From Desulfocapsa sp. (GTDB taxonomy: Bacteria; Desulfobacterota; Desulfobulbia; Desulfobulbales; Desulfocapsaceae), in NCBI GenBank assembly GCA_016765495.1, contig JAESPV010000027.1:310001-374000 (forward strand): a stretch of DNA of 64,000 nt. The letters are read 5' to 3'. Shown in pieces: positions 4,416 to 25,876 of the stretch; the first letter of the stretch is position 1; each line of letters opens with the position of its first letter. The notes under the pieces are model-generated. The model made no database searches. It saw nothing but the letters and a program-made list of their open reading frames with translations, and had not been told where the DNA came from. A program made the position numbers and the translations under genes.

Positions 4416-4457
4416 AATAAAAAATAAAAAGTAAAAAGATAATAAAATTCCTTTTCT

Positions 4458-4499: not shown

Positions 4500-4607
4500 C
4501 CTTTCCATAAGATGCAGAAAACGACTTGACCAGTTGACAATCATTCCTTTCTGCTGCACACTTTATATGAAGTTTTACTATTATAAAACATACCGGAGGA
4601 TTTACTT

Positions 4608-6251: not shown

Positions 6252-6278
6252 GTTTTTTGTAATTCTTTTATGCACCAC

Positions 6279-6314
6279 CTCTTCATGGGGGTTCTTTTCT
6301 TTACCCATGAAGAG
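6279..6314 (+). other. 11-bp perfect stem-loop after hcp
   Basis: CTCTTCATGGG pairs perfectly with CCCATGAAGAG across a 14-base pyrimidine-rich loop, 28 bases after the hcp stop. No T tract follows directly, so it more likely protects the 3' end of the hcp message or assists the terminator 23 bases further on. Confidence 0.55.
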
Positions 6315-6336
6315 CAGCGCTCTATTTTCCTCCTCT

Positions 6337-6376
6337 GGCAGAGTACGTTAAGAGATTATCGTGCTCTGCCTTTTTT
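6337..6376 (+). terminator. Intrinsic terminator between hcp and the siroheme reductase gene
   Basis: GGCAGAGTACG pairs with CGTGCTCTGCC (one G-T wobble), followed by six Ts. It lies 22 bases before the next start codon, with no obvious promoter after it, so it probably lowers rather than abolishes read-through to the next two genes. Confidence 0.8.
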
Positions 6377-6398
6377 AGTTATTTCGTGAGTGTTAATT

Positions 6399-7037
6399 AT
6401 GGACAGTACAATTCAAAATAAAACATTTCGCGTGGTTCCTGGACTGAATATGGGGTTATTTGCCCCTGAAGACTTGGAAACAATTCTTAGAATTATTAAT
6501 AAATATGATGTTCCAGCAACAAAAATAACCTCAGCTCAACGTCTTGCCCTGCTCGGTATGGACAAGGATGAAATGGCAAAGCTCCTGCAGGAGTTAGAAC
6601 GTCATATCAGAAAAACACCTGCTAACGGCGTCACCTATGTTCAAGCCTGCCCTGGATCTAAGTGGTGTAAATTTGGAATCCGTGACGCTCTGTCCCTTGG
6701 GCAAAAGCTGGAAGAGCTCTCCATGGAGCAACCCTTCAAAGCAAAGGTTAAAGTTGGGGTTTCCGGATGTCGCATGTGTTGCACCGAACCCTATGTTCGT
6801 GATTTAGGGATTTTTGCTTCTAAAAAAGGCTGGACGTTGGTCTTTGGAGGAAATGGTGGTAATAATGCACGTATTGCAGATATCGTGGCAACAGGTTTGG
6901 ACGATGAGGAAGTCCTTACCCTCGCTAAAAAATGCCTTACAGTATACCAGGAAGAAGCTAATCCACGCTCCCGCAGTGCTCGATTTATTGAACGATTCGG
7001 TATTGAAGCTTTCAAAAAAAAGGTTTTAGAAAAATAG
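6399..7037 (+). CDS. Small siroheme/[4Fe-4S] sulfite or nitrite reductase-like protein
   Basis: 212 residues, matching the short assimilatory-type sulfite reductases of sulfate reducers rather than full CysI or NirB. The siroheme/[4Fe-4S] ligand pattern is visible: ACPGSKWCKFG (C-x5-C) and VSGCRMCCTEPYVRDLG (C-x3-C). An N-terminal ferrodoxin-like half-domain precedes it. Such proteins carry out six-electron reduction of sulfite or nitrite; together with Hcp a role in nitrite or NO-related detoxification is plausible. ATG 6399 has GTGAG 8 bases upstream; an in-frame GTG at 6390 is the alternative. It is 10 bases from the next gene, so the two are co-transcribed. Confidence 0.85.
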   Translation: MDSTIQNKTFRVVPGLNMGLFAPEDLETILRIINKYDVPATKITSAQRLALLGMDKDEMAKLLQELERHIRKTPANGVTYVQACPGSKWCKFGIRDALSLGQKLEELSMEQPFKAKVKVGVSGCRMCCTEPYVRDLGIFASKKGWTLVFGGNGGNNARIADIVATGLDDEEVLTLAKKCLTVYQEEANPRSRSARFIERFGIEAFKKKVLEK

Positions 7038-7047
7038 GAGAAAACAG

Positions 7048-7677
7048 ATGCAATGCCCCGGACAGGACAACAGATATTGGGATGGAGAAGCAGTTTTTGA
7101 GGTCTCCTGCCCTCACTGCGGGAATGTCCTTGAATTCTTCAAGGATGATAGTCAACGTAGCTGTAAAAAATGCGGGAACCGTGTCTTAAATCCTCGTATT
7201 GACTTTGGCTGTGCAGCATACTGTTCACATGCGGAACAGTGTTTAGGCTCTATGCCTGCCGAACTCCTTGCCGAGCAGAAAAATCTCTTTAAAGACAAAC
7301 TTTCCATTGCTGTTCGAAAACAATTAATTGGCAAAGAAGAACTCTACAAAAAAGCAAGTGATCGTACTGAAATAGCAGAACAACTCTGCAAAGACGAACA
7401 ACGTGGTGATATGGCAGCAGTTCTTGCAGCCACCCTTCTGCTTGATGTTGACGAACCTGAAACGCTGTTGGAAGAACTAAAGGCCGACAATAAGATGAAA
7501 GAGGCAGTAACTCAAATTCTTACTCATCAAAAAACTGACTCAGACACTGAACAAGCCTCATCTGATATCTTCCACGATGCCTGCCTGCTTGCAGATATCA
7601 AATCTGATCCGAACGCAAAAACATCGCCTTCTTTCAAAACTAAAAATGGGCAAAAAATATTTACCACACAACATTAA
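7048..7677 (+). CDS. Zinc-ribbon protein with a degenerate HD-domain-like region
   Basis: 209 residues. The N-terminus holds a zinc ribbon (CPHCG at residues 17-21 and CKKCG about 16 residues on) followed by a Cys-rich stretch, FGCAAYCSHAEQC. This head resembles a family found beside hcp in Desulfobacterota in which it is joined to an HD phosphohydrolase. Here the part that should carry the HD metal site reads AAVLAATLLLDVDEPE, with Leu at the expected His and only Asp kept, and the earlier His is also missing, so hydrolase activity is doubtful. The last 35 residues are polar and unstructured. A strong AGGAG ribosome site precedes the ATG. Function unknown; linked to the hcp/siroheme locus by position. 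Confidence 0.7.
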   Translation: MQCPGQDNRYWDGEAVFEVSCPHCGNVLEFFKDDSQRSCKKCGNRVLNPRIDFGCAAYCSHAEQCLGSMPAELLAEQKNLFKDKLSIAVRKQLIGKEELYKKASDRTEIAEQLCKDEQRGDMAAVLAATLLLDVDEPETLLEELKADNKMKEAVTQILTHQKTDSDTEQASSDIFHDACLLADIKSDPNAKTSPSFKTKNGQKIFTTQH

Positions 7678-7871
7678 GTTCCTGCCTCGCCCACTTACCA
7701 CTCTATTGTTTATTCACCTTTTCAGGCAAATCTTCACAATAAGCACATCGTCGCTTCATCTTGTTTGACTTCAAAAAACATTGATGCTATATAAATATTT
7801 GTTCAGTATAAACCCGTTTGGTTTTTATATAAAATTCGCCGTAAACGAAATTTCAATTTATCAGGATTACT

Positions 7872-8324
7872 ATGAATTTCTCTTTAAACGTTCGTAAAAT
7901 TTTCATTCCCCTATTCGTTCTGCTTCTTGTTCCAGCTCTATGTTTTGCCCAAGACGTCAGTGTAAAAAAAGATAATGTTAATGTGAGAACCGGCCCGGGA
8001 ACAGAATTTCCCGTTGCCATGGAATTATTTAAAGGGTACCCCCTGAAAGTTCTCGAAAAAAAAGGTGACTGGCTTAAGATTAATGATTTTGAAAATGATA
8101 AGGGTTGGATATTCTCCGCTTTGGTAGAACCCGGAACCACAGTTATTGTTAACGGGAAAAAATCCGTCAATATGCGTTCAAAACCCAGCACAACTGCATC
8201 AATTGTGGCCTCTGTTGATCGTGGAGTAGTTCTTACAAAGGTTACCACGAAGGGCAAATGGGTTAAGGTTAAGCATAGCCAGGGTACAACTGGATGGATT
8301 TACAGTCCTCTTCTCTGGCCTTAA
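7872..8324 (+). CDS. Exported protein with two bacterial SH3 domains
   Basis: 150 residues. Residues 1-26 form a signal peptide ending at ALCFAQ. Two SH3b repeats follow: VKKDNVNVRTGPGTEFPVA...GDWLKINDF...GWIFSALV and VNGKKSVNMRSKPSTTASIVA...GKWVKVKHS...GWIYSPLL. SH3b domains usually bind peptidoglycan or cell-wall peptides, so a periplasmic envelope role is likely. It is a lone gene with an AT-rich upstream region (TATATAAAA at about 7825). Confidence 0.85.
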   Translation: MNFSLNVRKIFIPLFVLLLVPALCFAQDVSVKKDNVNVRTGPGTEFPVAMELFKGYPLKVLEKKGDWLKINDFENDKGWIFSALVEPGTTVIVNGKKSVNMRSKPSTTASIVASVDRGVVLTKVTTKGKWVKVKHSQGTTGWIYSPLLWP

Positions 8325-8349
8325 AAAACACACAAGCAGCCAGAGGGTT

Positions 8350-8440
8350 GTTCGAGAATAGACATTTTGTTCAAAATCGAAGAATTGTCCAAAAATAAGC
8401 ATAGTCATACATTTGATATTGCGAACATTATTTTTGGACA
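8350..8440 (+). repeat. MITE-like dispersed repeat, copy A (right end lost)
   Basis: 91 bases match positions 48964-49054 without gaps, 78 identical (86%). The inner arms GTCCAAAAATAA and TTATTTTTGGAC are a perfect inverted repeat, so the element folds on itself. The right terminal inverted repeat seen in copy B is absent here; the sequence changes into a terminator of unrelated sequence. Confidence 0.85.
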
Positions 8441-8454
8441 GGCTTCTAATAACG

Positions 8455-8490
8455 AAGGCCTGGTAAGACATTTACCCGGCCTTTTTTTTT
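8455..8490 (+). terminator. Intrinsic terminator downstream of the SH3 gene
   Basis: AAGGCCTGG and CCCGGCCTT form a 9-bp stem with one mismatch, followed by a run of nine Ts. The rest of the gap up to 8688 (about 200 bases) shows no gene; it holds only AT-rich sequence that probably includes the promoter of the next gene. Confidence 0.75.
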
Positions 8491-8688
8491 GTTTCCTTAG
8501 ACATTGCAGTCTTAAGGTCGACAGGTCGAGCGAACTACCTTCCGGATTTATTGCGAAACAGAAAAAAACCATAGTGGGTTTACGCATTTTTCTGTAGGAG
8601 AGCTTGCATAAACAAGGTAGAGTGCCTACTTCGCAGGTAAGAATTACAAAAAACACTTTAATATAGAAACTATTTCACTTAAGAAACA

Positions 8689-10374
8689 ATGATCTCCATA
8701 GCAACATTAGGTCCCCAGGGTTCGGATGGGTACAGAGCTGCACTCCAGTATTCACAGGATGCCAAGCTCTCTCTTTATAACCGTATCCCGGATGTAATCA
8801 ATGCCTTTTTACAAGAAGATGTGGATATTGCTTTTGTCCCGATTTACAACACTCGTGAGGGCGAAATCAAAGAATATTTTCATCTCCAGGAACTGTTGGT
8901 GAATGGATATTGGGTCGATAACCTGGTTCTTCCCATACACCTGTCTTTTGGTTGTCTGAAACAGAGTGCCCCCCCCGTACCTCCTGAGAAAATAATTGGC
9001 CGGAGTTCAGTTTTTAAACAGTGCGATGATTACCTTAATGAGCATTATCCCAATGCTACTCTTATGTCAGTCCCTGATATTGGCGCAGCCATGGACGACA
9101 TAAAAGAAAACAGCCGCTATGAATATGCCATTGTCGATTCTGAAGAACTGCTTCTAGAGCATGGTTTTGAAATTAGAGACCGTGAAATTGCAGAACACAA
9201 CCGTACACGTTTTGCAATTCTTGGTGGAAATTTGAATAGTGCCACTGGCTATGACGCCTCTGCGGTTATCACCAGACCCCTTAAAGATCGTGTTGGGATG
9301 TTAGTTGATATTCTGGGTGAATTTACCAAGCGAGGAATCAATATTCTTGATCTCCGCTCAGAAAATGATATCAAATCACAAAAACTTCAGATTTATCTCG
9401 AGATAGAAGGTCATATTGGTAACAAATTACTCCAGGAAGCCTTGAAAAGTATTGAAACAGATGTGATCCAGGAAGAAAACAGTCTTCGCCTGCTTGGTTC
9501 TTTCCCACGTGTTGATATGCGTGTAAAAAAAATACGTTCTTTTGGTTTTATTGGCACCGGAGATATGAGTACATGGTTTGCTGAACGTCTTGAGAATGAA
9601 GGGTATACAACTCTCCTGACCGGTAGATCAACACATATAGGGCCTGAAGAAATGATAGCACAGGTTGATGTGGTTATTATCTGCGTTCCAATTTCGGTAA
9701 CCGTTGATACCATCAATCAGTACGGACCGTTACTTAAAGATGGTCAGGCCATGATTCTACTAGCCGGGGAATCCGAACAAACTCTTAAGGCTGCAACAGA
9801 AGCTACCTCCAATGGCGTTGAACTGATGCTCGTTCACAATCTCTGGGGACCACAAGCACAGAGTATGAAGGACAAAAATGCCTCTGTCGTAAGGACACCA
9901 CGCAGCGGCTCCTTTTGTTCTGAGTTTGAAGCTTTCCTATACAAACACGGTGCTGATATCTCTCACGACAGCCCAACAAAACACGATTTACTTATGGGGG
10001 TTGGACAAAAACTGCCAACTACCATCTCAACTGCTCTTGCCATGACTTTAAAACAACATTCCATTGCATGTGCAGATATTGGTACTCACTCTACACTGAC
10101 ATCCTTGTATGGCATCCTGGCCATGGCCAGAATTCACAACCAGAACCCGAGAACCTATGCAGAAATCATGTCTACAGGTGGAGACGGCCGGAAAATTGTT
10201 CGTAGTTTCGCAGAAAATTTACTACAAATTGTAAGCATGGCTGAAGAGCAAAACATCTCTGGACTCTGTGAACTGATTGAAAACAGCAAGTCACATCTCA
10301 GCCCCGAATTTCTCGCTGAACATATGAAGCGATCACGAGCTGTGGATTCAATACTGACAAAATCAGGAAACTAA
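8689..10374 (+). CDS. Fused prephenate dehydratase - ACT - prephenate dehydrogenase
   Basis: 561 residues joining the two branch enzymes of phenylalanine and tyrosine synthesis. Residues 1-180 are a prephenate dehydratase (LGPQG at 7-11, VPIYNTREG at 50-58, the TRF motif at 173-175). Residues about 198-270 are an ACT regulatory domain (GMLVDILGEFTKRGINIL). Residues about 284-555 are a TyrA-type dehydrogenase with the nucleotide-binding FGFIGTGDMSTWFAERL at 285-301. No chorismate mutase domain is present. The ACT domain lacks the ESRP motif that binds Phe in typical PheA, so feedback control may differ. Ribosome site is weak. A small membrane protein gene starts 5 bases after the stop. Confidence 0.88.
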   Translation: MISIATLGPQGSDGYRAALQYSQDAKLSLYNRIPDVINAFLQEDVDIAFVPIYNTREGEIKEYFHLQELLVNGYWVDNLVLPIHLSFGCLKQSAPPVPPEKIIGRSSVFKQCDDYLNEHYPNATLMSVPDIGAAMDDIKENSRYEYAIVDSEELLLEHGFEIRDREIAEHNRTRFAILGGNLNSATGYDASAVITRPLKDRVGMLVDILGEFTKRGINILDLRSENDIKSQKLQIYLEIEGHIGNKLLQEALKSIETDVIQEENSLRLLGSFPRVDMRVKKIRSFGFIGTGDMSTWFAERLENEGYTTLLTGRSTHIGPEEMIAQVDVVIICVPISVTVDTINQYGPLLKDGQAMILLAGESEQTLKAATEATSNGVELMLVHNLWGPQAQSMKDKNASVVRTPRSGSFCSEFEAFLYKHGADISHDSPTKHDLLMGVGQKLPTTISTALAMTLKQHSIACADIGTHSTLTSLYGILAMARIHNQNPRTYAEIMSTGGDGRKIVRSFAENLLQIVSMAEEQNISGLCELIENSKSHLSPEFLAEHMKRSRAVDSILTKSGN

Positions 10375-10379
10375 GTTTC

Positions 10380-10520
10380 ATGGAACAAAATAATACTCAG
10401 GAACATCTTTCCCGCAAAGACCAGAAAAAGAAAGCAAAAGGCAATACCATGTTAATTGTTATTATATCTTGCTGGTTGCTTTTTTACTTGTTTATGGGTT
10501 CACAAAGCGGGATTGGATGA
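10380..10520 (+). CDS. Small single-pass membrane protein (46 residues)
   Basis: ATG at 10380 lies 5 bases after the stop of the dehydratase-dehydrogenase gene, so it is probably translated by coupling. The product has a charged N-terminus (RKDQKKKAK, residues 12-20) and one hydrophobic helix (residues 24-40: MLIVIISCWLLFYLFMG). No family recognised. It is short and could be fortuitous, but the charge and helix pattern is that of a real membrane peptide. Confidence 0.5.
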   Translation: MEQNNTQEHLSRKDQKKKAKGNTMLIVIISCWLLFYLFMGSQSGIG

Positions 10521-10636
10521 AGACCTGGCCTCCTTCGGTCAGAGGGGAGTCAATGTGCAATGCCTGCCAGCTTTCAAGATAGCACTAAATCTGCTGTACA
10601 ATAATTTATCAGACTTTTACATATAGGAGTTTTATC

Positions 10637-11287
10637 ATGTACATTCAAAATCTTAGCGTCCTGGACGAAACCCATATCTGTCCAGACTGTGACATAAAAA
10701 TGTCCTGCTGTGAAGTCCCTCCCGTTCATGTTGGTGATGGCCTTGGCTGGGGCTCTGAAGTTATGTTTATCTGTTTAAATGATGAATGTCCGACATTTAA
10801 AGGGGGATGGAAAAAAATAGATGTGAATTATGGGCACAAAGGTTCGTTTAGAAATATGCAGCTTCCCGGTTCCAAGGAATTAAATGCCTTGATGGTTGCT
10901 TCCAAAATGGCATTTACCGGTTCAATCGTTGATCCGGAATCAATGCGTGAACAAAATGAACGTTACCAGAAGGAAAAAGAAGCTGTTGCTGCCCTTGATA
11001 CTTGTTTAGAGAAGAACGATATCACTCCCGTTATGACACTTATCCTTGACGAATCCGCAAACCCCAAGGATCGATCCCGCGCCATCGATTTACTTAAAAG
11101 CTTCAATGACCTTTCCTGTATTGATCCAATTAGGAATCATACATTTAGAAATACTGAATTTGAACAAAAATGCAATATGGTTATCTTTGTACTCTTAAAA
11201 GAGAATTACCAGAAAGAATGTCCATTCTGTGCCGAGTTAATAAAGGCTCAGGCGAAAAAATGTTTGCACTGCAAAGCTGAGGTTTAA
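10637..11287 (+). CDS. Hypothetical protein with zinc ribbons at both ends
   Basis: 216 residues. The N-terminus has CPDCDIKMSCC then CLNDECP (about residues 16-52), and the C-terminus has CPFCAELIKAQAKKCLHCK, a classic single zinc ribbon. The middle part is helical and may form a short HEAT-like or coiled segment (residues 105-190). A GGAG ribosome site sits 8 bases before the ATG. Zinc ribbons of this type mediate protein or nucleic-acid contacts; no specific function can be given. Single gene between the aromatic amino acid gene and tRNA-His. Confidence 0.7.
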   Translation: MYIQNLSVLDETHICPDCDIKMSCCEVPPVHVGDGLGWGSEVMFICLNDECPTFKGGWKKIDVNYGHKGSFRNMQLPGSKELNALMVASKMAFTGSIVDPESMREQNERYQKEKEAVAALDTCLEKNDITPVMTLILDESANPKDRSRAIDLLKSFNDLSCIDPIRNHTFRNTEFEQKCNMVIFVLLKENYQKECPFCAELIKAQAKKCLHCKAEV

Positions 11288-11373
11288 AAAGATTAAATGA
11301 TCAAAACTGACAGGTTTTTCAAAAGCTAACCTTTCAGACGGAGAGTTTTTTTACGACGCCAGCAAAATTATCC

Positions 11374-11402
11374 TTGCCAAACACAGAGGCAAAGGGTATA
11401 AA
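11374..11402 (+). promoter_or_regulatory. Sigma-70 promoter of tRNA-His
   Basis: TTGCCA at 11374-11379 and TATAAA at 11397-11402 are separated by 17 bases. Transcription would start about 14 bases before the tRNA. Confidence 0.75.
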
Positions 11403-11422
11403 AAACAGCGGAATTTTAGGCG

Positions 11423-11499
11423 GTGGGTGTAGCTCAGCTGGTGGTAGCACCTGGTTGTGACCCAGGAGGTCGTGGGTTCAAGTCCCATCACTCACCCCA
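11423..11499 (+). tRNA. tRNA-His (anticodon GTG)
   Basis: Full cloverleaf: acceptor GTGGGTG/CACTCAC (one G-T pair), anticodon stem CCTGG/CCAGG with loop TTGTGAC giving anticodon GTG, T arm GTGGG-TTCAAGT-CCCAT, and an encoded CCA. The histidine identity signs are present: G at position -1 (base 11422) opposite discriminator C73. Confidence 0.97.
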
Positions 11500-11509
11500 T
11501 TGATGAAAA

Positions 11510-11547
11510 AGAGTCCCAAGCGTATATGCTTGGGACTCTTTTTTTTT
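11510..11547 (+). terminator. Intrinsic terminator of tRNA-His
   Basis: A perfect 12-bp stem AGAGTCCCAAGC/GCTTGGGACTCT with a 6-base loop is followed by nine Ts. Confidence 0.93.
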
Positions 11548-11563
11548 ATACCAAAATCATATT

Positions 11564-12184
11564 ATGAAAACCCTCTATTTATTTTTTCTGATATCAGTTG
11601 CAACAATATTCCTCAGTAGCTGTTCAGCAAGCAAACTTCTTTCAAGCTGGAAAGACGAATCCCTTGAACAGGGCTCAATATCTCCAGTCCTTGTAATCGG
11701 TGTTGTAAAACATGACGAAACAAAACGAAGAATCTATGAGGATACTTTTGTCGACAGTTTTAAGTCAGCCGGGACAAATGCCATGGCCAGTTATACGTTA
11801 AGTAAAGCCCCCATCGAGCCTCATAAAACAGCATTACGTGAAATAATAAAAAAAGCAGAAGCTAAAACAATTCTCATTACCCATATGGTCAGCAGTCAAG
11901 AAAAAGATTTTTTTCAGCCCTCCTCTCGCATTATCGGTACAAACAGTTATTCAAATCAGAGTTTATTCAGCTATTACCCCTTTATATATAATTCTGTCTC
12001 TTCATCTGGAAGTTATATCAGCACGACCAAAGTATTGCTTGAAACCAGCCTCTACGATGTTAAAACTGAAAAACTTATATGGACAGCGCGTACGGAATCA
12101 ATTGATCCTGTAATGACACGAAAATATTACCAGCAGTTAATCGATCTGTTTTTACAAGACCTTGCCGATCAGAAAATACTCTGA
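11564..12184 (+). CDS. Lipoprotein of unknown function (DUF4136-like)
   Basis: 206 residues. Signal peptide with lipobox FLSSC at residues 16-20, so it should be lipid-anchored at Cys20. The mature part has VLVIGVVKHDETKRRIYEDTFVDSF and later VLLETSLYDVKTEKLIWTARTES, a pattern known from DUF4136-type envelope lipoproteins. No catalytic motif is visible. The gene begins 17 bases after the tRNA terminator, with no clear ribosome site, so its own promoter is not obvious. Confidence 0.7.
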   Translation: MKTLYLFFLISVATIFLSSCSASKLLSSWKDESLEQGSISPVLVIGVVKHDETKRRIYEDTFVDSFKSAGTNAMASYTLSKAPIEPHKTALREIIKKAEAKTILITHMVSSQEKDFFQPSSRIIGTNSYSNQSLFSYYPFIYNSVSSSGSYISTTKVLLETSLYDVKTEKLIWTARTESIDPVMTRKYYQQLIDLFLQDLADQKIL

Positions 12185-12218
12185 GTTGTACCTCCCCCGA
12201 TGGTTTCAACATGACATT

Positions 12219-13136
12219 TCAGCCCTCCTCGTTTCGTTTCTGTTTTCTTGAAAAAACGGCTGCCTCCATCCCGGCAACACACCCCTCTCCGACAGCCTTT
12301 GCCATCTGATATGGATGCCCGGTAATGTCCCCTGCTGCATAAACTCCGGCCACATTAGTTTCTGCCTTTTTATTGGTGTCGATATGACTCATGGTATCCA
12401 TATCAAGCTGAACACCGATTTCGAGGGCGAGTTCCATGGCGCCTTTTGCTCCAAGTTCGATGAAAACTCCATCAAGGTTTATTGTCTTACCATTTTCAAG
12501 AATCAAAGTCTTAACATCTCCATCTCCAGCAATCTCACTGACCCAGGTACCAGAAACATTTTCAACAGTAGACTCATTAAGTTTTTCGATTAATTCCCTG
12601 GAGGCAAGCAGTTCCTGATTCACAAGATACACCTTGGATGCATATCCTGTGAGGGTAAGAGCGCCATCAATTGCCGCACTCGCATTACCAACAACTGCAA
12701 CAATTGCATTTCGATAAAAGTTGGCATCACAATCAACGCAGTACGATACACCTCTGCCAAAAAATTCTTTTTCACCGGGAACTTTTAACTTTTTCCTGGA
12801 CGTACCATTTGCAAAAATTAGAGTTCTTGTGGAAACTGTAACACCACTCTCGAGTTCAACCGAGAAACCATCTCCTTCCTGATGAACCTTTAAAACATCA
12901 TCTTCCATGACTTCTGTACCAAAACGTTTTGCCTGATCCATTCCGGCAATAAGCATTTCCTCCCCGGTTTTCACTCCTTCTACACAGGCATAATTCTCAA
13001 CATGTGCAGAAAACAGGGCACTGCGTTCAATTCTACCAAGAAGCAAGACATTACACTTTTTTCGTACTGAATGGATGGCTGCCTGAATACCGGCAGGCCC
13101 TGCCCCTATAATAACCACATCTTTTTGCTCACTCAT
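12219..13136 (-). CDS. Thioredoxin reductase-like flavoprotein
   Basis: 305 residues. The FAD-binding GAGPAG lies at residues 11-16, the redox-active CVDC at 133-136 and the second FAD motif GVYAAGDITG near residue 265. The overall plan is that of low-Mr thioredoxin reductase. The NADPH-binding half is unusual: the GGGDSA motif is replaced by GNASAA (150-155) and the HRR arginine motif that grips the 2'-phosphate of NADPH is replaced by NQELLASRE. It may use NADH or another electron donor, or serve a different disulfide partner. Divergent from the lipid operon, convergent with the lipoprotein gene. Confidence 0.85.
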   Translation of the reverse strand: MSEQKDVVIIGAGPAGIQAAIHSVRKKCNVLLLGRIERSALFSAHVENYACVEGVKTGEEMLIAGMDQAKRFGTEVMEDDVLKVHQEGDGFSVELESGVTVSTRTLIFANGTSRKKLKVPGEKEFFGRGVSYCVDCDANFYRNAIVAVVGNASAAIDGALTLTGYASKVYLVNQELLASRELIEKLNESTVENVSGTWVSEIAGDGDVKTLILENGKTINLDGVFIELGAKGAMELALEIGVQLDMDTMSHIDTNKKAETNVAGVYAAGDITGHPYQMAKAVGEGCVAGMEAAVFSRKQKRNEEG

Positions 13137-13317
13137 TATTGATTAACTCCGTTTATGTCCATAGAAATATAAATAAAAGGAGAACAGCCTTATATAAAAG
13201 GTGCATTCCTCTTGAAATTTTTGTCAATTTATCATAAAAGTAACAGCCATTGCTAAATGTATATAACATATGATCCCGCATTATAATCAGCCACTCTACA
13301 TCAGTCAATCTGCCATC

Positions 13318-14556
13318 ATGGATACACAATCCCCTAGAATCGTTATAACAGGTGTTGGTCTTGCCGCACCAAACGCTGACAACCTGAAAACCTACCGTGA
13401 AAAATTACTGACAGGTGTCAGTGAAATCACCGAGCTTGATCTCCGATATTTCGGCAAAGCACCAGCTGGAATCTGTGACTTTAATGAAACAAAATATAGA
13501 AAGAAAAAAGAGAACAAACGAGGTACCCGTGCTGGATGTTTAGGCGTCTATTGTGCTAATGAAGCGCTTGCAGATGCGGATCTCTCAATTGATCATTATA
13601 AACGGTCTCGTATCGGTGTTTATGTTGGTCTTACAGAGCATGGTACCGTGGAAACGGAAAACGAGGTCTACAATATCAGCCAATTTGATTATAACGTAGA
13701 TTACTGGACCCATCACCATAATCCAAGAACTGTTCTGAACAACCCTGCCGGTGAAATCACCATGAATCTTGGTATAACTGGCCCTCATTATGTCATTGGA
13801 GCTGCTTGTGCTGCTGGTAACGCTTCGCTCATCCAGGGAGTACAGATGATGCGTCTTGGTGAAGTGGATATGGCACTTGCCGGAGGCGTGTCGGAATCTA
13901 CGGGTTCTTTTGGCATATTTGCAAGTTTTCAGGCACAGGGAGCTTTAGGTTCAGCAGCTGACCCCAGAGAAGCCTGTAGACCATTTGACACATCTCGAAA
14001 TGGTATTGTCGTATCCGAGGGAGCATGTATTTACGTGCTTGAACGACTAGAGAGCGCACTTGAGCGCGGAGCCAAAATATACGCTGAGATTGCTGGTTAT
14101 GCAATGAACTCCGATGCTAAAGATTATGTTCTTCCTTTCCACGAGAGACAGGCTGAGTGTATGGAGCTTGCCTTGGAAAGAGCTGGTCTTGCACCCGAAG
14201 ACATTGATATTCTGAACACTCATGCCACAGGAACCAAACAGGGTGACATTGAGGAATGTAAAGCTATTCGTCAAATTTTTGGTGAAGGAAGAAACACGTA
14301 CATTAATAATACCAAGTCTATTATTGGTCACGCAATGGGTGCCGCCGGCGTTCTTGAACTTGCTGGAAATCTCCCGGCATTTACAGATAAACTCGTCCAT
14401 CCTTCCATTAACTGCAATGATCTCGATCCAGAATGCAAGTTGAACAACATGGTTTTTGACAAACCCGTCGAGCTTGAAAAAGTAGATACAATTTTAAATA
14501 ACTCCTTTGGAATGGTGGGTATCAACTCTGTAATCATTGTGAAAAAGTACAAATAA
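13318..14556 (+). CDS. Beta-ketoacyl-ACP synthase II-like ketosynthase of the lipid operon
   Basis: 412 residues from ATG 13318 (an in-frame ATG at 13270 would add 16 residues with no family character; neither has a good ribosome site). The thiolase-fold triad is complete: C164 in GAACAAG, H302 in NTHATGT and H338 in SIIGHAMGAAG, so it should condense malonyl-ACP with an acyl primer. It is closer to KASII/FabF than to the KASIII/OleA type. It heads an operon with an ACP, two CrtI-like flavoproteins, a ketoreductase and a dehydratase, so it is probably a dedicated chain-elongating enzyme and not the housekeeping FabF. Confidence 0.88.
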   Translation: MDTQSPRIVITGVGLAAPNADNLKTYREKLLTGVSEITELDLRYFGKAPAGICDFNETKYRKKKENKRGTRAGCLGVYCANEALADADLSIDHYKRSRIGVYVGLTEHGTVETENEVYNISQFDYNVDYWTHHHNPRTVLNNPAGEITMNLGITGPHYVIGAACAAGNASLIQGVQMMRLGEVDMALAGGVSESTGSFGIFASFQAQGALGSAADPREACRPFDTSRNGIVVSEGACIYVLERLESALERGAKIYAEIAGYAMNSDAKDYVLPFHERQAECMELALERAGLAPEDIDILNTHATGTKQGDIEECKAIRQIFGEGRNTYINNTKSIIGHAMGAAGVLELAGNLPAFTDKLVHPSINCNDLDPECKLNNMVFDKPVELEKVDTILNNSFGMVGINSVIIVKKYK

Positions 14557-14572
14557 TCAAATGGTTGCGATT

Positions 14573-14632
14573 GTTGCGCAACTTTATAAAAAAACATATA
14601 AAAAACACTCGCGGTGTGTTATATTGCGCAAT
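14573..14632 (+). promoter_or_regulatory. Two TTGCGCAA palindromes, candidate operator pair
   Basis: GTTGCGCAAC at 14573-14582 and ATTGCGCAAT at 14623-14632 are perfect 10-bp palindromes with a shared 8-bp core, their centres exactly 50 bases apart. They lie in the 149-base gap between the ketosynthase and ACP genes. The spacing is near five helical turns. Binding of a dimeric regulator is inferred only from symmetry. Confidence 0.4.
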
Positions 14633-14705
14633 TTGTTTACGCAGTAATGACGTTTATTTATTTGTTTGAAACTATACAAAAAAGGCCGCGGCCGGAGACA
14701 TATAC

Positions 14706-14957
14706 ATGACACGTGATGCAATTAAGGAGCTCATCCTTGAAATAATTGAAGATATTGATGAGGATGCAGATTTCGATACTCTTCAGGCCGATAAACCTTT
14801 ACGCGATCAACTCGACCTTGATTCCATGGACTTTCTTGATATCGTAATGGAATTACGCAAACGCCATAAATTACAGATTCCTGAAGAAGATTACCCCGAG
14901 CTTGCAACTCTTGATTCCTGTGTAAACTACCTGGAACCCCTACTTGCCGACGCTTAA
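14706..14957 (+). CDS. Acyl carrier protein of the lipid operon
   Basis: 83 residues, acidic, with Ser40 in DLDSMDFLDIVMEL as the phosphopantetheine attachment site. It keeps the four-helix ACP pattern but has the variant DLDSMDF in place of DSLDTVE of FabF-associated housekeeping ACP, a mark of specialised ACPs. The ribosome site GGAGA precedes the ATG, just after a GC-rich palindrome GGCCGCGGCC. It ends 2 bases before the next start codon, so it is tightly coupled to the flavoprotein gene. Confidence 0.92.
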   Translation: MTRDAIKELILEIIEDIDEDADFDTLQADKPLRDQLDLDSMDFLDIVMELRKRHKLQIPEEDYPELATLDSCVNYLEPLLADA

Positions 14958-14959
14958 AA

Positions 14960-16345
14960 GTGTACGTTCCTTTGTTGATCATCGGCGGCGGTCTATCAGG
15001 ACTTGCCGCCGCTCTTCGTTTTGCCCGTTTCATCCCTGATGTCCTGCTTCTTGAACAACATTCCAGAATAGGTGGCCTAAACTCTTATTATTACAGGAAT
15101 AACAGGCTGTTTGAAACAGGGCTTCATGCCATCACCAACTATGCACCAGCAGCAGTTAAAAACGCACCTTTAAATCGACTCCTTAGACAGTTGAAAATCA
15201 AACGAAAAGAGCTTGATCTTCATCAACAGAATCAAAGTGAAATTCGATTTCTCAATCAGCAGTCACTGCTTTTTTCCAATGATTTTTCACTTTTTGCAGC
15301 TGAGATTGCAAACAAATTTCCTGCCAGTTACCCTGGTTTTCAGAAATTACTGCAGTTAATTGACCAGTATGACCCCTTCACCCCCCTCCCCTTTGTCTCT
15401 GCAAAGAAAGTACTACAGGAACACCTTCAGGATACACTTTTAACAGACATGCTTCTCTGCCCGTTGATGTATTACGGTTCATCCATTGAACGGGATATGG
15501 ATCTTGGCCAATTTGTTATTATGTTCCGGGCTATCTTCCTTGAAGGAATGTTCAGACCCGGTGGAACCATTAAGGATCTACTTGATTTACTGCTTAAACA
15601 CTACACTGACCACGGCGGAAAAATTAAAACCAAAGCAACTGTCAAGCGGATCCTTCATACTGGCAAAAAAATCCATGGGGTGCTTCTCAGCGATGGTCAA
15701 GAGATACGCTGTGATTATATACTCTCGACCATTGGTTCAGAGGAGACCTTTACACTCCTTGATGAGCCTTCTGGTCTTGAAACTCTTCCCAGGATGGGTT
15801 TTGTAGAAACAATTTTTGAACTTGAAAAAAGTGCCGAACTCAAACAGGGTCATGAGCGTACAATAATATTTTACAATACCGCCGAGCACTTTTTATACCA
15901 GCAGCCCGACCCTTTAGTTGATTTTAACTCAGGCGTCATCTGCCTTCCTCAGAATTTTCAAGATCTACCAGAATCATCTTTCCAAGAGGTTCGCACTACA
16001 CATCTGGCAAATTACAGTGAGTGGAAAAGTCTTCAGCAGGACAAAAGTTCTTACAATTCTGCTAAGGACAGAGTCGCACTCACATCGCTTGCCGTTGCAG
16101 AAAAAATCCTTGGTAATTTCGCTCAAAACATAGTATATCGTGATACTTTCACTCCACTGACTATTGAGCGTTTTACAGCCAAAAAGAATGGTGCTATATA
16201 CGGGAATCCCGTTAAAATCAAGGATGGCGACATTGGATATGATAATCTCTATTTAGCTGGTACAGACCAGGGTTTTCTTGGCATCATTGGTTCCATGCTA
16301 AGTGGTGTGTCTATCGTAAATCAGCATATCCTGCCTCGCTTGTAA
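14960..16345 (+). CDS. CrtI/phytoene-desaturase-like FAD oxidoreductase, first copy
   Basis: 461 residues from a GTG start, 2 bases after the ACP stop. The N-terminal FAD motif is LLIIGGGLSGLAAALRFA with the acidic ribose-binding residue in VLLLEQHSRIGGLNSYY. The C-terminus has NLYLAGTDQGFLGIIGSMLSG, the second FAD contact of the carotenoid desaturase/isomerase family. These enzymes introduce, reduce or isomerise C=C bonds in long chains. Since it sits directly behind an ACP, an ACP-bound acyl chain is the likely substrate (inference). The start codon falls inside the recurring GTGTACGTTCCT motif. Confidence 0.83.
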   Translation: MYVPLLIIGGGLSGLAAALRFARFIPDVLLLEQHSRIGGLNSYYYRNNRLFETGLHAITNYAPAAVKNAPLNRLLRQLKIKRKELDLHQQNQSEIRFLNQQSLLFSNDFSLFAAEIANKFPASYPGFQKLLQLIDQYDPFTPLPFVSAKKVLQEHLQDTLLTDMLLCPLMYYGSSIERDMDLGQFVIMFRAIFLEGMFRPGGTIKDLLDLLLKHYTDHGGKIKTKATVKRILHTGKKIHGVLLSDGQEIRCDYILSTIGSEETFTLLDEPSGLETLPRMGFVETIFELEKSAELKQGHERTIIFYNTAEHFLYQQPDPLVDFNSGVICLPQNFQDLPESSFQEVRTTHLANYSEWKSLQQDKSSYNSAKDRVALTSLAVAEKILGNFAQNIVYRDTFTPLTIERFTAKKNGAIYGNPVKIKDGDIGYDNLYLAGTDQGFLGIIGSMLSGVSIVNQHILPRL

Positions 16346-16379
16346 ATTTCACTCAATACAACACTTTAAAAGTTTTATT

Positions 16380-17789
16380 ATGCCTGTTTCTTTTTCACAA
16401 GCCGATGACAAATATGACGTTATTGTAATTGGTTCGGGACTAGGAGGTCTCACTTCAGCAAACCGTCTTGTCTACTGCGGTTATAGCGTCCTCCTTCTTG
16501 AATATCACAGTCAACTCGGAGGCTTGGCCACCTGGTTTAAACGAAAGGACCATATCTTTGACGTTTCACTCCATGGATTTCCATACGGGATGGTTAAAAC
16601 CTGTAAGAAATACTGGAATAAAGAGATCATGAACTCAATCGTTCAGTTGAAAAATATTATTTTTGATAATCCACAATTTCATTTAAAAACCACCTTTGAT
16701 CGAATTGATTTCACGCAAAAACTCAATAAACAATTCAAGATTCCACAATCAACCATAGACGCTTTTTTTACCCGGGTTGCCGGTATGAATTTCTATGACG
16801 ACCAATCCATGACCACAAGGGAATTGTTTGAAGAGTTTTTTCCCGGTCGCAGTGATGTACATCGTCTGCTTATGGAACCAATCAGTTATGCAAACGGTTC
16901 AACCCTTGATGATCCTGCTATTACCTACGGTATCGTTTTTTCCAATTTTATGAACAAGGGTGTTTTCACTTTTGAAGGCGGAACCGACAAACTCATAGGT
17001 ATGATGACCACAGAACTTGAGAACAATGGCGTTACTCTCTGCACAAATGCCAAGGTTGATCGAATTGTCGTTGATAAAGGAGTTGTCAGAGGAATTGAAT
17101 GCCAGGGAAGAATGATTGAAGCAGGAGCCGTTGTTTCAAACTCAGGCATTACAAATACCATCCATAACCTCACCGATCAGGATGCGTTTTCTTCTGAGTT
17201 TATGGAAAAAGCCAACAAGATTCGTGTTAACAACTCCTCCTGCCAGGTTTACATGGGTGTAAAAAAGGAAGATACGATAGATGATATTGGCGATCTTCTC
17301 TTTACCTCAACCGTAGCTGAGTTTGACTCTACTGAACTTCGTGATTTCAAAACCGGGTCAAAAACGTTTTCTGTATACTATCCCAAAACCAGACCAGGAC
17401 ACGACCGTTATACCATCGTTGCCTCAATGAACTCGAATTATTCAGACTGGGAAAAATTTACAGAAGAAGAATACAAGAAAGAAAAAGAAGATCTTATTCA
17501 ACGTACTCTCATTGATCTGAATCGTTATTTTCCAAATGCCCGGGAAAGAATGGACTGGATAGAAGCAGCCACTCCAAGAACATTCAATCGTTACACCCTT
17601 CATACGCACGGAACCTCTTTTGGCACAAAATTTGAGGGCCTTGAGGTATCCCGTTCAATATTCAAAGAAGTTAAAGGCTTATTTCATGTTGGTTCGGTCG
17701 GGATTATTATGTCCGGCTGGCTTGGAGCAATTAACTACGGAGTTATTGTCTCAAATGATGTTGATGCATATATGAGAAGCAAGGATTAA
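16380..17789 (+). CDS. CrtI/phytoene-desaturase-like FAD oxidoreductase, second copy
   Basis: 469 residues. FAD motif DVIVIGSGLGGLTSANRLVYCGYSVLLLEYHSQLGG (about residues 14-47, read in two parts around the GxGxxG) and C-terminal FHVGSVGIIMSGWLGAINYG. It is closest in style to the phytoene desaturase/retinol saturase group. It differs clearly from the first flavoprotein, so the two are not a recent duplication; they may act in turn or as a heterodimer on the same chain. It begins 34 bases after the first and ends 5 bases before the ketoreductase gene. Confidence 0.83.
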   Translation: MPVSFSQADDKYDVIVIGSGLGGLTSANRLVYCGYSVLLLEYHSQLGGLATWFKRKDHIFDVSLHGFPYGMVKTCKKYWNKEIMNSIVQLKNIIFDNPQFHLKTTFDRIDFTQKLNKQFKIPQSTIDAFFTRVAGMNFYDDQSMTTRELFEEFFPGRSDVHRLLMEPISYANGSTLDDPAITYGIVFSNFMNKGVFTFEGGTDKLIGMMTTELENNGVTLCTNAKVDRIVVDKGVVRGIECQGRMIEAGAVVSNSGITNTIHNLTDQDAFSSEFMEKANKIRVNNSSCQVYMGVKKEDTIDDIGDLLFTSTVAEFDSTELRDFKTGSKTFSVYYPKTRPGHDRYTIVASMNSNYSDWEKFTEEEYKKEKEDLIQRTLIDLNRYFPNARERMDWIEAATPRTFNRYTLHTHGTSFGTKFEGLEVSRSIFKEVKGLFHVGSVGIIMSGWLGAINYGVIVSNDVDAYMRSKD

Positions 17790-17794
17790 AAAAA

Positions 17795-18541
17795 ATGCAA
17801 AATTTTGATTTTACGGGACAAAAAGTTGTTATCACAGGTGCTAGTAGAGGTATTGGCAAGGCAATCAGTCTCGCATTTCTTGAGTGCGGCGCAACAGTAA
17901 TTGGTATATTTGGTGGGAATAAAGAAGCCGCCGATATATTTCAGACAGAATGTTTGCATTTTAGCGGAAAGTTGCAATTATATCAATGTGATGTTTCAGA
18001 TGAGAACCAGGTTCAACGCTTTTACGACCAAGTTGAGGAACAATTTTCCACAGTCGATATCCTGGTGAATAATGCAGGAATCAGAAATGACAAACTCCTT
18101 GCTCTGATGGATCAGACAAGCTGGCAAAGAGTCATTGATATTAATCTTACTGGAACATTTAATATGTGTCGCCATGCTGTAATGCTTATGCTTAAACAAA
18201 AATATGGACGCATCATTAATATCACATCTCCTGTTGCAACTCTTGGACTTGTAGGGCAAACAAATTATGGAGCCTCAAAAGCAGGTCAAATTGGTCTTAC
18301 AAGGAGCCTCTGTAAGGAGGTTGCCCGTAAAAAAATCACTGTCAACTGTGTTTCCCCCGGCTTTATAGAAACAGAACTTATTGAAGATCTCAGCCCGGAA
18401 TTACTGAAAAGTCACAAAAGGTCCGTGCCTATGCGCAGATTTGGAAAGGTTGAAGAGGTTGCCGATGCAGTCCTTTTTCTTGCATCAAAAAATGCGGCAT
18501 ATATTAGTGGGACAGTACTTGATGTGAATGGAGGATTGTAA
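17795..18541 (+). CDS. 3-oxoacyl-ACP reductase-like SDR of the lipid operon
   Basis: 248 residues, classical short-chain dehydrogenase. Cofactor motif TGASRGIGKA (about residues 13-22), NNAG at about 90, catalytic Ser in NITSP and Y-x3-K in YGASK, ending with GTVLDVNGGL. The length and end match FabG. It should reduce the beta-keto group made by the ketosynthase, with NADPH as probable donor. It starts 5 bases after the second flavoprotein and ends 3 bases before the dehydratase. Confidence 0.88.
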   Translation: MQNFDFTGQKVVITGASRGIGKAISLAFLECGATVIGIFGGNKEAADIFQTECLHFSGKLQLYQCDVSDENQVQRFYDQVEEQFSTVDILVNNAGIRNDKLLALMDQTSWQRVIDINLTGTFNMCRHAVMLMLKQKYGRIINITSPVATLGLVGQTNYGASKAGQIGLTRSLCKEVARKKITVNCVSPGFIETELIEDLSPELLKSHKRSVPMRRFGKVEEVADAVLFLASKNAAYISGTVLDVNGGL

Positions 18542-18544
18542 CAT

Positions 18545-18985
18545 ATGATTCAGGATCTGAAAGTTACGGATCTTATCCCCCATCGTGCCCCTTTTCTCTG
18601 GGTCGATTCCATGATCGGATATGACCAATCATCACTTATCACCGAAAAATATATTCCTGAAGATCTGGATGTTTTTAAAGGCCATTACCCCGGCCATCCA
18701 ATCCTGCCTGGGGTACTGTTATGTGAAGCAATTTTTCAGACAGGCGCCCTTTTCATTGCACTTCTTTTAAAAGAATCTCAAGTACCCTCAATGGGGGTGC
18801 CTGTATTGACACGAGTTGAAGGGATTAAATTCAAACGTCCTGTCGGCCCAGGTGACACTATTCGCATGAAAGTAGCACTTAAAGAAACTCTTGGTGGCGC
18901 CTGGTTTTTAAAAGGAACCCTTCGCGTCAAAGAAAAGGTTTCTGTGCAGGTTGATTTTGCCTGTACTCTAGCTAACCTCAAATGA
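18545..18985 (+). CDS. FabZ-like 3-hydroxyacyl-ACP dehydratase of the lipid operon
   Basis: 146 residues, single hotdog fold. The catalytic motif FKGHYPGHPILPGVLLCEAIFQTGA (about residues 39-63) holds the active His and Glu of FabZ. It dehydrates 3-hydroxyacyl-ACP to the trans-2-enoyl form. No enoyl reductase gene follows in the operon, so products could stay unsaturated unless the general enzyme acts; the two CrtI-like proteins could take over later redox steps. The Tol operon starts 83 bases downstream. Confidence 0.88.
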   Translation: MIQDLKVTDLIPHRAPFLWVDSMIGYDQSSLITEKYIPEDLDVFKGHYPGHPILPGVLLCEAIFQTGALFIALLLKESQVPSMGVPVLTRVEGIKFKRPVGPGDTIRMKVALKETLGGAWFLKGTLRVKEKVSVQVDFACTLANLK

Positions 18986-24421: not shown

Positions 24422-25876
24422 TCAGTTTTCCTCTAACATCTTTATCGTCTTCTGTATTTTTTTTATCTCTTCTTTATACTCCTCAGTCAATCCCGGTCCC
24501 TTTAATGCAATTTTTATATTATGTTTGGATAATCTCAAGCGCCCCTCATACAGATTGTACCTGGCAAGATAGAAAGCGGAGTTTGCCTTCTCACCCATTG
24601 CTGCTTTGAGCTTTCCCAGCTCAAAATATACTTTTGAATACTCGGGCATTTTATCCTGAACTTCTTTTAAATATCTCTCACCCTTGTCATACTCTTCTAA
24701 TTCAATCCACATGCGTGCAAGCTGGAAGGCAGCCCACATATCATGTCTGTCTTTATCGTAGGCGCTTCGGAATAATGTTAGCGCACGTTCTTTGTTTCCT
24801 GATTCTTTTTCTACAAGTCCCAGATCAACCAGAAGTATGGATTTATTCGGATAGAAATGTATTACTTCCTGCAAATATTTTTTACTGGAATCATAATTGT
24901 TGTCCATTCTATCAAGTTGGGAGAGACCATAATGCAGCATAATTCTTTCACTCTGAGTAAGCGTAGAATCTGCGAGACGGTTGTGAAGAAGATTCCGTAG
25001 TTTTTTTCCATCTTTCACAAGAGAGAGAATACGGTATTTCATGCGCAAAAAACCAAAATCACAGGTTTCTTCAAATTCCTGCAACTTTTTTTCCTCAAAA
25101 GCAATTAAAGATTGCACATAATCAAGCCTTTCATCAGGATAGGGATGAGTAAGAAGATATTGAGGAATATTATTTCCCATCGTGTAGCGATTAATACGAC
25201 GCATGGCATGGAGCATAGCTTCCTGTCCCTGTGGATGTCTGCCCATTTCTTTCATCCAGCCGTAGGCGAGTCGATCCGCTTCTTCTTCATGTTTTCTGCT
25301 AAAATGAAGGTTTGCAGTCTGGCCCGCAGCAAGAGACCCTACAAGCAGTGCCTGACTAACTGCCCCAGCACCCAGTGCCAGGCTGGCCAGTGCAAGTAGC
25401 GTTGTGGCCACAGTTATTTTTGACCCCTTATCCATTCCCTGGGCAATGTGTCTGGCCGCAACATGACCAATTTCATGGGCAAGTACTGAAACAAGCTCAT
25501 CTTCATGTTCCATTTTTTCAATTAAGCCTGAATAGAAAAAGACAAGCCCGGAGGGTGCTGCGAAAGCATTGAATTGGGAAGAGGCGATAATATTAAAACG
25601 ATAGTCAAAAAATTGAAAACCAGCGACTTCCAGAACTTCACCACCAAGTTCATTGATATATTGAGAGATGTCAGGGTCGTCAAGGAGTGGGAAGGCGAGC
25701 CGTATCTGATAAAGCAGCTTCTGCCCTATTTTTCGTTCCTCACCTACGGTTAAAGCCATGCTCCTGCTACCATTTGCAGCCATAAGAAAGCACACTATTA
25801 AAAAACAGTTAAAAACCTTCTGCAGAAATCTCTTAACAAACAAGCGACAACCTCTTTGTTTTGAATCCTTCAACAT
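24422..25876 (-). CDS. M48 family metalloprotease with TPR repeats (BepA-like)
   Basis: 484 residues. A hydrophobic N-terminus (residues about 20-38) serves as signal peptide. Zinc motif HEIGH at 134-138 with the third ligand in HEEEADRLAYGWM. The C-terminal half carries TPR-like repeats (YLQEVIHFYPNKSILLVDLGLVEKE, RALTLFRSAYDKDRHD, KGERYLKEVQDKMPEYSKVYFELGKLKA). BepA-type proteases degrade or assist misassembled outer-membrane proteins. It overlaps oleD by 7 bases, so it is read as fourth gene of the ole transcript. Confidence 0.9.
   Translation of the reverse strand: MLKDSKQRGCRLFVKRFLQKVFNCFLIVCFLMAANGSRSMALTVGEERKIGQKLLYQIRLAFPLLDDPDISQYINELGGEVLEVAGFQFFDYRFNIIASSQFNAFAAPSGLVFFYSGLIEKMEHEDELVSVLAHEIGHVAARHIAQGMDKGSKITVATTLLALASLALGAGAVSQALLVGSLAAGQTANLHFSRKHEEEADRLAYGWMKEMGRHPQGQEAMLHAMRRINRYTMGNNIPQYLLTHPYPDERLDYVQSLIAFEEKKLQEFEETCDFGFLRMKYRILSLVKDGKKLRNLLHNRLADSTLTQSERIMLHYGLSQLDRMDNNYDSSKKYLQEVIHFYPNKSILLVDLGLVEKESGNKERALTLFRSAYDKDRHDMWAAFQLARMWIELEEYDKGERYLKEVQDKMPEYSKVYFELGKLKAAMGEKANSAFYLARYNLYEGRLRLSKHNIKIALKGPGLTEEYKEEIKKIQKTIKMLEEN

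Follow-up and report, generated by a model that had tools for sequence, protein, structure and literature searches.

What does a fatty-acid operon make when two of its genes encode flavoproteins of the carotenoid-desaturase type? The question is raised by a stretch of 64,000 nucleotides from Desulfocapsa sp. (assembly GCA_016765495.1, contig JAESPV010000027.1, positions 310,001 to 374,000), here called the window, which carries a ketosynthase (KS), an acyl carrier protein (ACP), two such flavoproteins (FAD1 and FAD2), a short-chain dehydrogenase/reductase (SDR) acting as the presumed ketoreductase (KR), and a dehydratase (DH) in a compact operon. Taken as a whole, the best explanation, which we consider probable, is that the operon belongs to a system which, without Pfa, supplies polyunsaturated acyl-ACP for head-to-head hydrocarbons. 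The genes are as follows, with the basis of each assignment in brackets.

13318–14556, plus strand: KS, a FabF-like ketosynthase, dedicated paralogue (open reading frames, Pfam ketoacyl-synt)
14706–14957, plus strand: ACP, an acyl carrier protein with Ser40 (Pfam PP-binding)
14960–16345, plus strand: FAD1, a CrtI/CRTISO-like flavoprotein with a GTG start (Pfam, NCBIfam, alignment, AF2, Foldseek)
16380–17789, plus strand: FAD2, a CrtD/CRTISO-like flavoprotein (Pfam, NCBIfam, alignment, AF2, Foldseek)
17795–18541, plus strand: SDR, a FabG-like 3-oxoacyl-ACP reductase (Pfam adh_short)
18545–18985, plus strand: DH, a FabZ-like 3-hydroxyacyl-ACP dehydratase with the motif PGVLLCE (Pfam FabA-like domain)

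An earlier note, made from the sequence alone, had described six genes on one strand with most gaps of 2–34 bases. All six open reading frames are indeed present on the plus strand, and the gaps are 149 (between KS and ACP), 2, 34, 5 and 3 bases; the KS frame is extendable, with a longer version starting from an in-frame ATG at 13270. The catalytic residues lie where that note had placed them (KS C164/H302/H338, ACP Ser40, SDR Y158-xxx-K), its FabZ-type gene is the DH listed above, and its two dissimilar CrtI-like flavoproteins share 21% identity. All six proteins score over the Pfam cut-off, both flavoproteins as Amino_oxidase/NAD_binding_8. The motif PGxxxCE, which we take to be FabZ-like rather than FabA-like, is found in 76 of 76 DH orthologues. 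Counts for other motifs (DH GHYPGxP-type 22/76, SDR glycine 64/82, FAD1 glycine 72/81, KS first histidine 68/76) come from patterns that are partly too narrow, so that their shortfalls may reflect the pattern.

The operon is separate from the housekeeping fatty-acid genes of its genome (G000; 3.8 Mb in 108 contigs, contamination estimate 7.28), where fabH-, fabG-, acpP- and fabF-like genes make up an ordinary fab cluster (L192). Compared with their housekeeping counterparts, KS is 33% identical to FabF, SDR 39% to FabG and ACP 26% to AcpP. Identity to orthologues is at least 57% for KS (76 kept), 50% for SDR (82), 64% for ACP (79), 40% for FAD1 (81) and 51% for FAD2 (91); these minima depend on the floors set for keeping an orthologue (KS 50, ACP 50, FAD1 36, FAD2 48, SDR 48, DH 38, ER, the enoyl reductase discussed below, 50, and OleA 40, with 85% coverage in each case), and the window's own copy is counted in the KS and ACP sets. 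By these identities, and in answer to the concern that the genes might group with housekeeping FabF/FabG/FabZ, the operon KS, SDR and ACP are far closer to their orthologues.

Synteny is kept as well. Among the best 80 matches, which were counted as the related loci, the six genes occur in order in 63; a further 13 lie on contigs too short to judge, and four (L049, L061, L067 and L069) have room for the whole set, with SDR and/or DH not detected. Because the whole order recurs in 63 of 80 loci, the six-gene set is more than a chance association. A TolQ orthologue is present on 57 of the 80 loci, and likewise in the window. The earlier interpretation thus stood in part: conservation and separation from the housekeeping set support a dedicated system for an unusual ACP-bound chain, and the suggestion that this chain is perhaps polyunsaturated is supported as probable, but the role in ladderane synthesis that had been proposed for such a gene set was not supported, as discussed below.

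The partner genes were absent from the earlier note, which otherwise had the gene set right. Three of them lie in the same window, 7 kb downstream of the operon (25870–29347).

25870–26856, minus strand: OleD, 2-alkyl-3-oxoalkanoate reductase (NF042423, E 5e-116, under the cut-off with 387 of 580 bits)
26853–28490, minus strand: OleC, olefin beta-lactone synthetase (NF006754, over the cut-off)
28487–29347, minus strand: OleB, alpha/beta hydrolase of the haloalkane-dehalogenase type (models under the cut-off; overlaps oleC)

The best model for OleD is Shewanella-type, though OleD is under its strict cut-off, and OleC scores 525 bits with the Shewanella-type NF045785 versus 504 bits with the Xanthomonas-type NF045786, both under the cut-off. 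OleB orthologues sit between oleA and oleC in relatives. The oleA gene of this genome is on another contig (G000:C3:14207-15238). Its product scores 434 bits (cut-off 285) with NF006720, which we take to be the OleA model, and its best solved-structure match is 3row (E 1.5e-61), presumably the Xanthomonas OleA; the active-site cysteine motif NACLG was found in 13/13 OleA sequences. As a separate observation on this region, a BepA-like M48 protease gene (24422–25876, minus strand) shares 7 bases with the end of oleD, and its transcription together with oleBCD is possible.

The gene content of the set and its link with the ole genes are directly observed. In L081 (Candidatus Desulfobia pelagia), L062, L082, L165 and L169, the genes run on one strand in the order KS-ACP-FAD1-FAD2-SDR-DH-ER-OleA-OleB-OleC-OleD. 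The same fusion is present from ACP onward in L075, up to the contig end in L083, L084 and L168, without detected SDR and DH in L067, and without detected DH in L069. A second order, KS-ACP-FAD1-oleA-oleB-oleC-oleD-FAD2-SDR-DH-ER, is found in two genomes of another family, f30 (L159 and L160). A common pathway for the cassette and the ole genes is indicated because the same eleven genes occur in two different arrangements. FAD2 and OleA lie less than 4 kb apart in 8 of the 14 genomes having both. This link between cassette and Ole was not found among the papers listed in searches of open-licence literature.

The enoyl reductase completes the cassette at seven genes. The operon does lack an enoyl reductase, as the earlier note stated, but the genome has a FabI-type one elsewhere (G000:C3:59255-60061, locus L193). 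With the ER of L081 as the query, a match at E<=1e-15 and 56–75% identity was obtained in 16 of 16 genomes with FAD2, and in none of four order-mates without FAD2. The gene adjoins FAD2 or OleA in 15 of these 16 genomes, the exception being the window's own, where it stands apart from both. The presence of this reductase bears on a rival product, a conjugated polyene with all-trans bonds, for example an aryl polyene or a pigment resembling flexirubin. The KS, ACP, KR and DH set would suit such a product and SDR scores 244 bits against FlxB (cut-off 340), but neither a second KS (chain-length factor) nor an aromatic-starter gene is among the six genes, and an enoyl reductase and Ole partners go with the cassette; we regard this product as quite improbable.

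Distribution across the phylum was assessed in 297 genomes with a completeness of at least 85, searched for FAD2 (E<=1e-30), OleA (E<=1e-50), OleC (E<=1e-70) and PfaA (E<=1e-120). In these counts the cassette is represented by FAD2 alone; its other genes were checked in 12 contexts (L159–L170), which cover, besides the window's own, 9 of the 16 FAD2 genomes, whole or in part. FAD2 was found in 16 genomes, OleA in 34, OleC in 35 and PfaA in 28, of which 13 are over the curated cut-off and 8 lack OleA. At E<=1e-15, OleA matches rise to 55/297; a gap in the values runs from 1.8e-54 to 4.5e-27, and the 21 weaker matches were left out.

The OleA genomes fall into two groups: 14 have FAD2, 20 have a PfaA-type synthase, none has both and none has neither. 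FAD2 and PfaA occur together in 0 of the 297 genomes. OleA is present in 14 of the 16 genomes with FAD2 versus 20 of the 281 without (Fisher p 4e-13), and either supplier is present in 10 of the 263 genomes that lack OleA (8 PfaA, 2 FAD2). Within the order, OleA is found in all nine FAD2 genomes (the window's own included) and in none of the four without FAD2. The PfaA model TIGR02813 is over its cut-off in 0/16 FAD2 genomes, with 0/16 also at E<=1e-120, whereas a PfaA search of the 20 other OleA genomes gave matches at E<=1e-60 in all 20, 12 of them over the cut-off. Because OleA genomes divide in this way between FAD2 and PfaA, the cassette most likely takes the place of Pfa in supplying polyunsaturated acyl-ACP for hydrocarbons of the C31:9 type. 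That it feeds polyunsaturated chains to OleA is, we infer, very likely.

How such chains are supplied elsewhere provides the model for the pathway. In Shewanella, Pfa is needed for the C31:9 hydrocarbon and OleA is thought to use its 16:4 chain (PMC6463001); C31:9 is accordingly thought to come from two 16:4 n-3 chains via OleABCD, with Pfa as supplier (PMC4882568, PMC6463001). Pfa-type clusters co-occur with ole in 44/80 genomes and have been proposed as suppliers of olefin precursors in Geobacter and others (PMC3098273). The cassette resembles the Pfa and OleABCD systems of Shewanella and Geobacter bemidjiensis in that polyunsaturated acyl-ACP would pass to OleA and the same downstream Ole genes follow, and a PfaA-type synthase accompanies OleA in 20 genomes of our own sample of the phylum. 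The Pfa logic of an enoyl reductase plus trans-2 to cis-2/cis-3 isomerisation (PMC4882568, PMC6463001, PMC3098273) would apply to both, and, as predicted from sequence, the KS-KR-DH-ER content of Pfa-style elongation is present in the cassette with its ER. The cassette differs from Pfa in having separate KS, ACP, KR, DH and ER, with no PfaA over the cut-off in 16/16 genomes, and in its two CrtI-like flavoproteins, which would replace the FabA-like dehydratase/isomerase domains.

The operon would form the greater part of a dedicated synthase of type II, with separate enzymes, that makes polyunsaturated acyl-ACP and has the FabI-type ER, OleA and OleBCD as partners. KS, KR and DH would run elongation cycles on the dedicated ACP; in some cycles ER would remove the new double bond, while in others FAD1 or FAD2 would turn it into a cis double bond that is kept. 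OleA would then condense a pair of these chains head to head, after which OleBCD would convert the product to a C31 polyene of the C31:9/C31:8 type, C31:8 arising where a 16:3 chain, from one missed step, is paired with 16:4.

All 2187 programmes of seven cycles were enumerated, each cycle being allowed to reduce the bond, keep it at C2 or move it to C3. Exactly one yields 16:4 (4,7,10,13): reduction at C4, C10 and C16, a C3 bond at C6 and C12, and a C2 bond at C8 and C14. Because this single programme uses all three options, ER and both kinds of kept bond would be needed. FAD1 and FAD2 are proposed as the two isomerases, since the cassette consists of KS, ACP, KR, DH and ER plus two further enzymes, and the DH is of a FabZ-like kind. 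It is likely that FAD1 and FAD2 make the cis bonds. That they do so as isomerases (one trans-2 to cis-3, the other trans-2 to cis-2) and not as dehydrogenases is suggested by pathway logic, and we hold the chances to be even.

The CrtI/CrtD fold serves desaturases and isomerases, and CRTISO isomerises with reduced flavin, which is the way of working proposed for FAD1 and FAD2. AF2 models of both proteins have high scores (pLDDT 91.8 for FAD1 and 90.9 for FAD2), and the best Foldseek matches are 4rep and 4dgk for FAD1 and 4rep for FAD2, with 3ka7 and 5mog also among the matches. The glycines of the FAD-binding motif are present in both (alignments A1, 34 rows, and A2, 38 rows, each combining the window's protein with a selection from the 81 and 91 orthologues). 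The best NCBIfam model for FAD1 is a carotenoid isomerase, far under its cut-off, and the best named match of FAD2 is a Desulfocapsa sulfexigens record at 95% identity. Beside the operon, and divergent from it, lies a gene for a thioredoxin-reductase-like flavoprotein (12219–13136, minus strand), with an orthologue at the same place in 31 of the 80 loci; it might keep the operon flavoproteins reduced.

Fold and FAD-binding glycines are what FAD1 and FAD2 share with CrtI, CrtD and CRTISO, and these, with weak matches to the corresponding models, are what would speak for carotenoid biosynthesis, in which the two proteins act on isoprenoids. They differ in being 14–18% identical to the solved carotenoid enzymes (4rep, 4dgk, 5mog), in scoring 66 of 587 and 114 of 550 bits, far under the curated family cut-offs, and in keeping company with acyl-ACP and Ole enzymes. 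No sign of true carotenoid synthesis, which the earlier note had named as a possible refutation, was seen, and this explanation is exceedingly improbable.

A stronger rival retains the same product and partners but makes FAD1 and FAD2 true desaturases, which would dehydrogenate ACP-bound chains beside existing double bonds, with quinone, for example, as the electron acceptor. The elongation set with ER that accompanies the flavoproteins would be superfluous for an enzyme that works on finished chains, and CrtI-type desaturation gives conjugated, not methylene-interrupted, bonds. Structural similarity favours this rival, with the gamma-carotenoid desaturase 4rep nearest to both proteins and CrtI 4dgk next for FAD1. 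Desaturation by such proteins was also what Rattray et al. (2009) proposed in Desulfotalea, where similar isotope values, -20.1/-20.4 for the C31 polyenes and -20.8 for one C16:1 isomer, were read as desaturation of monounsaturated chains (PMC2649909). FabX of Helicobacter pylori offers a further precedent, as a flavoprotein through which ACP-bound chains acquire a cis double bond, the cis-3 bond being formed by dehydrogenation plus isomerisation (PMC8626469); it differs in being an FMN enzyme, FabK-related, with an Fe-S cluster and an oxygen-requiring dehydrogenation. Two Kuenenia homologues, on the other hand, are reported to have formed no lycopene in E. coli (PMC4790861). The desaturase alternative is rather unlikely.

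Several points weigh against the explanation preferred here, that of a Pfa-free supplier with FAD1 and FAD2 as isomerases. The nearest solved structure of both flavoproteins is a desaturase; their role as isomerases derives from pathway logic and stands at an even chance; the cis-2 bond could be made by the dehydratase itself; and the chain length and bond positions are borrowed, by analogy, from other bacteria. Sub-cut-off PfaA matches occur in 16/16 FAD2 genomes, the best at 230 bits in G011, in a frame of 1450 residues that includes KS and KR pieces, so another multidomain synthase is present there. On the OleA tree, which has rows for 30 of the 34 OleA genomes (there were no loci for G202, G222, G242 and G282), only about two switches of supplier type are seen; the p-values overstate the case because genomes are not independent and evolutionary events are few. 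In this genome the set is split, with ER and OleA on another contig and 44 kb apart from each other. The FabI-type ER may, moreover, also be the housekeeping reductase, because FabK is weak here (no strong match to the model, best E 2e-4) and the FabV search was uninformative, its model having matched nothing, control genomes included, so that the result carries no weight on FabV. Across the order, divergent FabK matches near 1e-50 were found in 11/13 genomes, over the cut-off only in G008 and G045.

Exceptions to the distribution also count on this side. No OleC at E<=1e-70 was found in G129 (FAD2 and OleA) or in G033 and G255 (Pfa and OleA), and the OleC-bearing genomes G063, G147, G183 and G191 have neither supplier, their OleA being only divergent or with no match at E<=1e-15. 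The FAD2 genomes G008 and G045, both of family f12, lack OleA, so the product is not always a hydrocarbon. In G008 the contig begins inside FAD1; in G045 the cassette is entire.

L161 (G045:C28:3001-22000), 4196–18878: full seven-gene cassette in a genome without OleA, adjoining membrane proteins and a macrolide-type glycosyltransferase

Two of these membrane proteins were scanned and gave 26.8 and 23.2 bits with MBOAT_2 (cut-off 25), and the product of this cassette is perhaps a polyunsaturated ester or glycolipid. It could be argued from this locus that the chain serves mainly a membrane ester or glycolipid throughout, the Ole link being secondary. Such a reading is improbable given the presence of OleA in 14 of the 16 FAD2 genomes and the two different operon fusions with ole. 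G045 also has two extra FAD2 copies (L162 8334–9788 and L163 8323–9795), 52% identical to the window's FAD2, near which the other cassette genes were not found.

The ladderane question arises from the literature on related genes. Both the anammox bacterium Kuenenia and Desulfotalea psychrophila were described as having phytoene-dehydrogenase-like proteins among their clustered fatty-acid genes, in the latter DP1860, DP2405 and DP2406, and D. psychrophila is reported to make C31:8 and C31:9 hydrocarbons without a known polyunsaturated fatty acid pathway; for Desulfotalea, Rattray et al. (2009) put forward an anaerobic route to polyunsaturated chains with desaturases and radical SAM enzymes (PMC2649909). 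Neither oleA nor oleABCD is named in that paper. From their gene numbers alone, the consecutive DP2405 and DP2406 would fit as the counterpart of the FAD1-FAD2 pair. The window operon is like these clusters in combining type II fatty-acid synthesis genes with phytoene-dehydrogenase-like proteins, and, by the proposed product, in the C31:8 and C31:9 of D. psychrophila, a likeness at the level of descriptions; it differs in that no radical SAM gene is among its six genes (open reading frames, Pfam). Neighbours at 8–26 kb were judged for radical SAM by reading the open reading frames, with a family search for some only.

Could the operon nevertheless make a precursor of ladderane or ladderane-like lipids? 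Similar flavoproteins among the Kuenenia fatty-acid genes (PMC2649909) would favour it, as would another fatty-acid-like cluster of the same genome, L098 (G000:C17:1001-21000), with two radical-SAM-like proteins and two KS (PF00109). This cluster also has thioesterase-like, MMPL-like membrane and polysaccharide-deacetylase-like proteins (names except KS come from reading the sequences), and, going by these descriptions, it resembles the radical-SAM-bearing Kuenenia/Desulfotalea cluster more closely than the window operon does. Because L098 resembles the Kuenenia cluster more by gene descriptions, the window operon is not to be equated with that cluster. With no radical SAM seen in the operon, partners that are Ole genes by position and distribution, and no ladderanes reported from D. 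psychrophila in that study (PMC2649909), a ladderane role is very improbable. Elsewhere in the genome, L097 (G000:C37:34001-54000) has at 10374–15835, in a row, an ACP, a KS, an acyltransferase-like, a radical-SAM-like, a third CrtI-like flavoprotein and a methyltransferase-like gene (KS and flavoprotein named by search, the others partly by reading); the third CrtI-like protein is 19–22% identical to FAD1 and FAD2.

Scans for regulatory signals gave little. Promoter candidates were not in excess (14 versus 13.9 in shuffles), and terminators showed a small excess (8 versus 5.2 in shuffles, sd 2.2).

The occurrence of C31:9-type polyenes in an anaerobe without Pfa is a question raised by Rattray et al. 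(2009; PMC2649909), and no answer to it was found in the open-licence literature searched. The cassette would explain polyunsaturated hydrocarbons in such anaerobes that lack the known enzymes, and would represent a known kind of function, a supplier for head-to-head hydrocarbons, with possibly new enzyme chemistry. What CrtI-like proteins do in ladderane synthesis is likewise described as unsolved, attempts with Kuenenia genes having been unsuccessful (PMC4790861). A broader proposal, which we put forward tentatively and at slightly less than an even chance, is that of an oxygen-independent type II synthase of polyunsaturated chains unrelated to Pfa, in which FAD1 and FAD2 are both isomerases: a portable cassette of seven genes that can work together with either Ole or acyltransferases, that is a general substitute for Pfa in hydrocarbon-making Desulfobacterota, and whose chemistry is maybe a key to the flavoproteins of the ladderane clusters. 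The cassette comprises a defined seven genes plus OleA, with a clear expected product, and can be moved to a laboratory host, where the reaction of FAD1 and FAD2, isomerase or desaturase, is open to direct test. If the proposal is true, these bacteria would possess a second, unrelated way to build polyunsaturated chains without oxygen.

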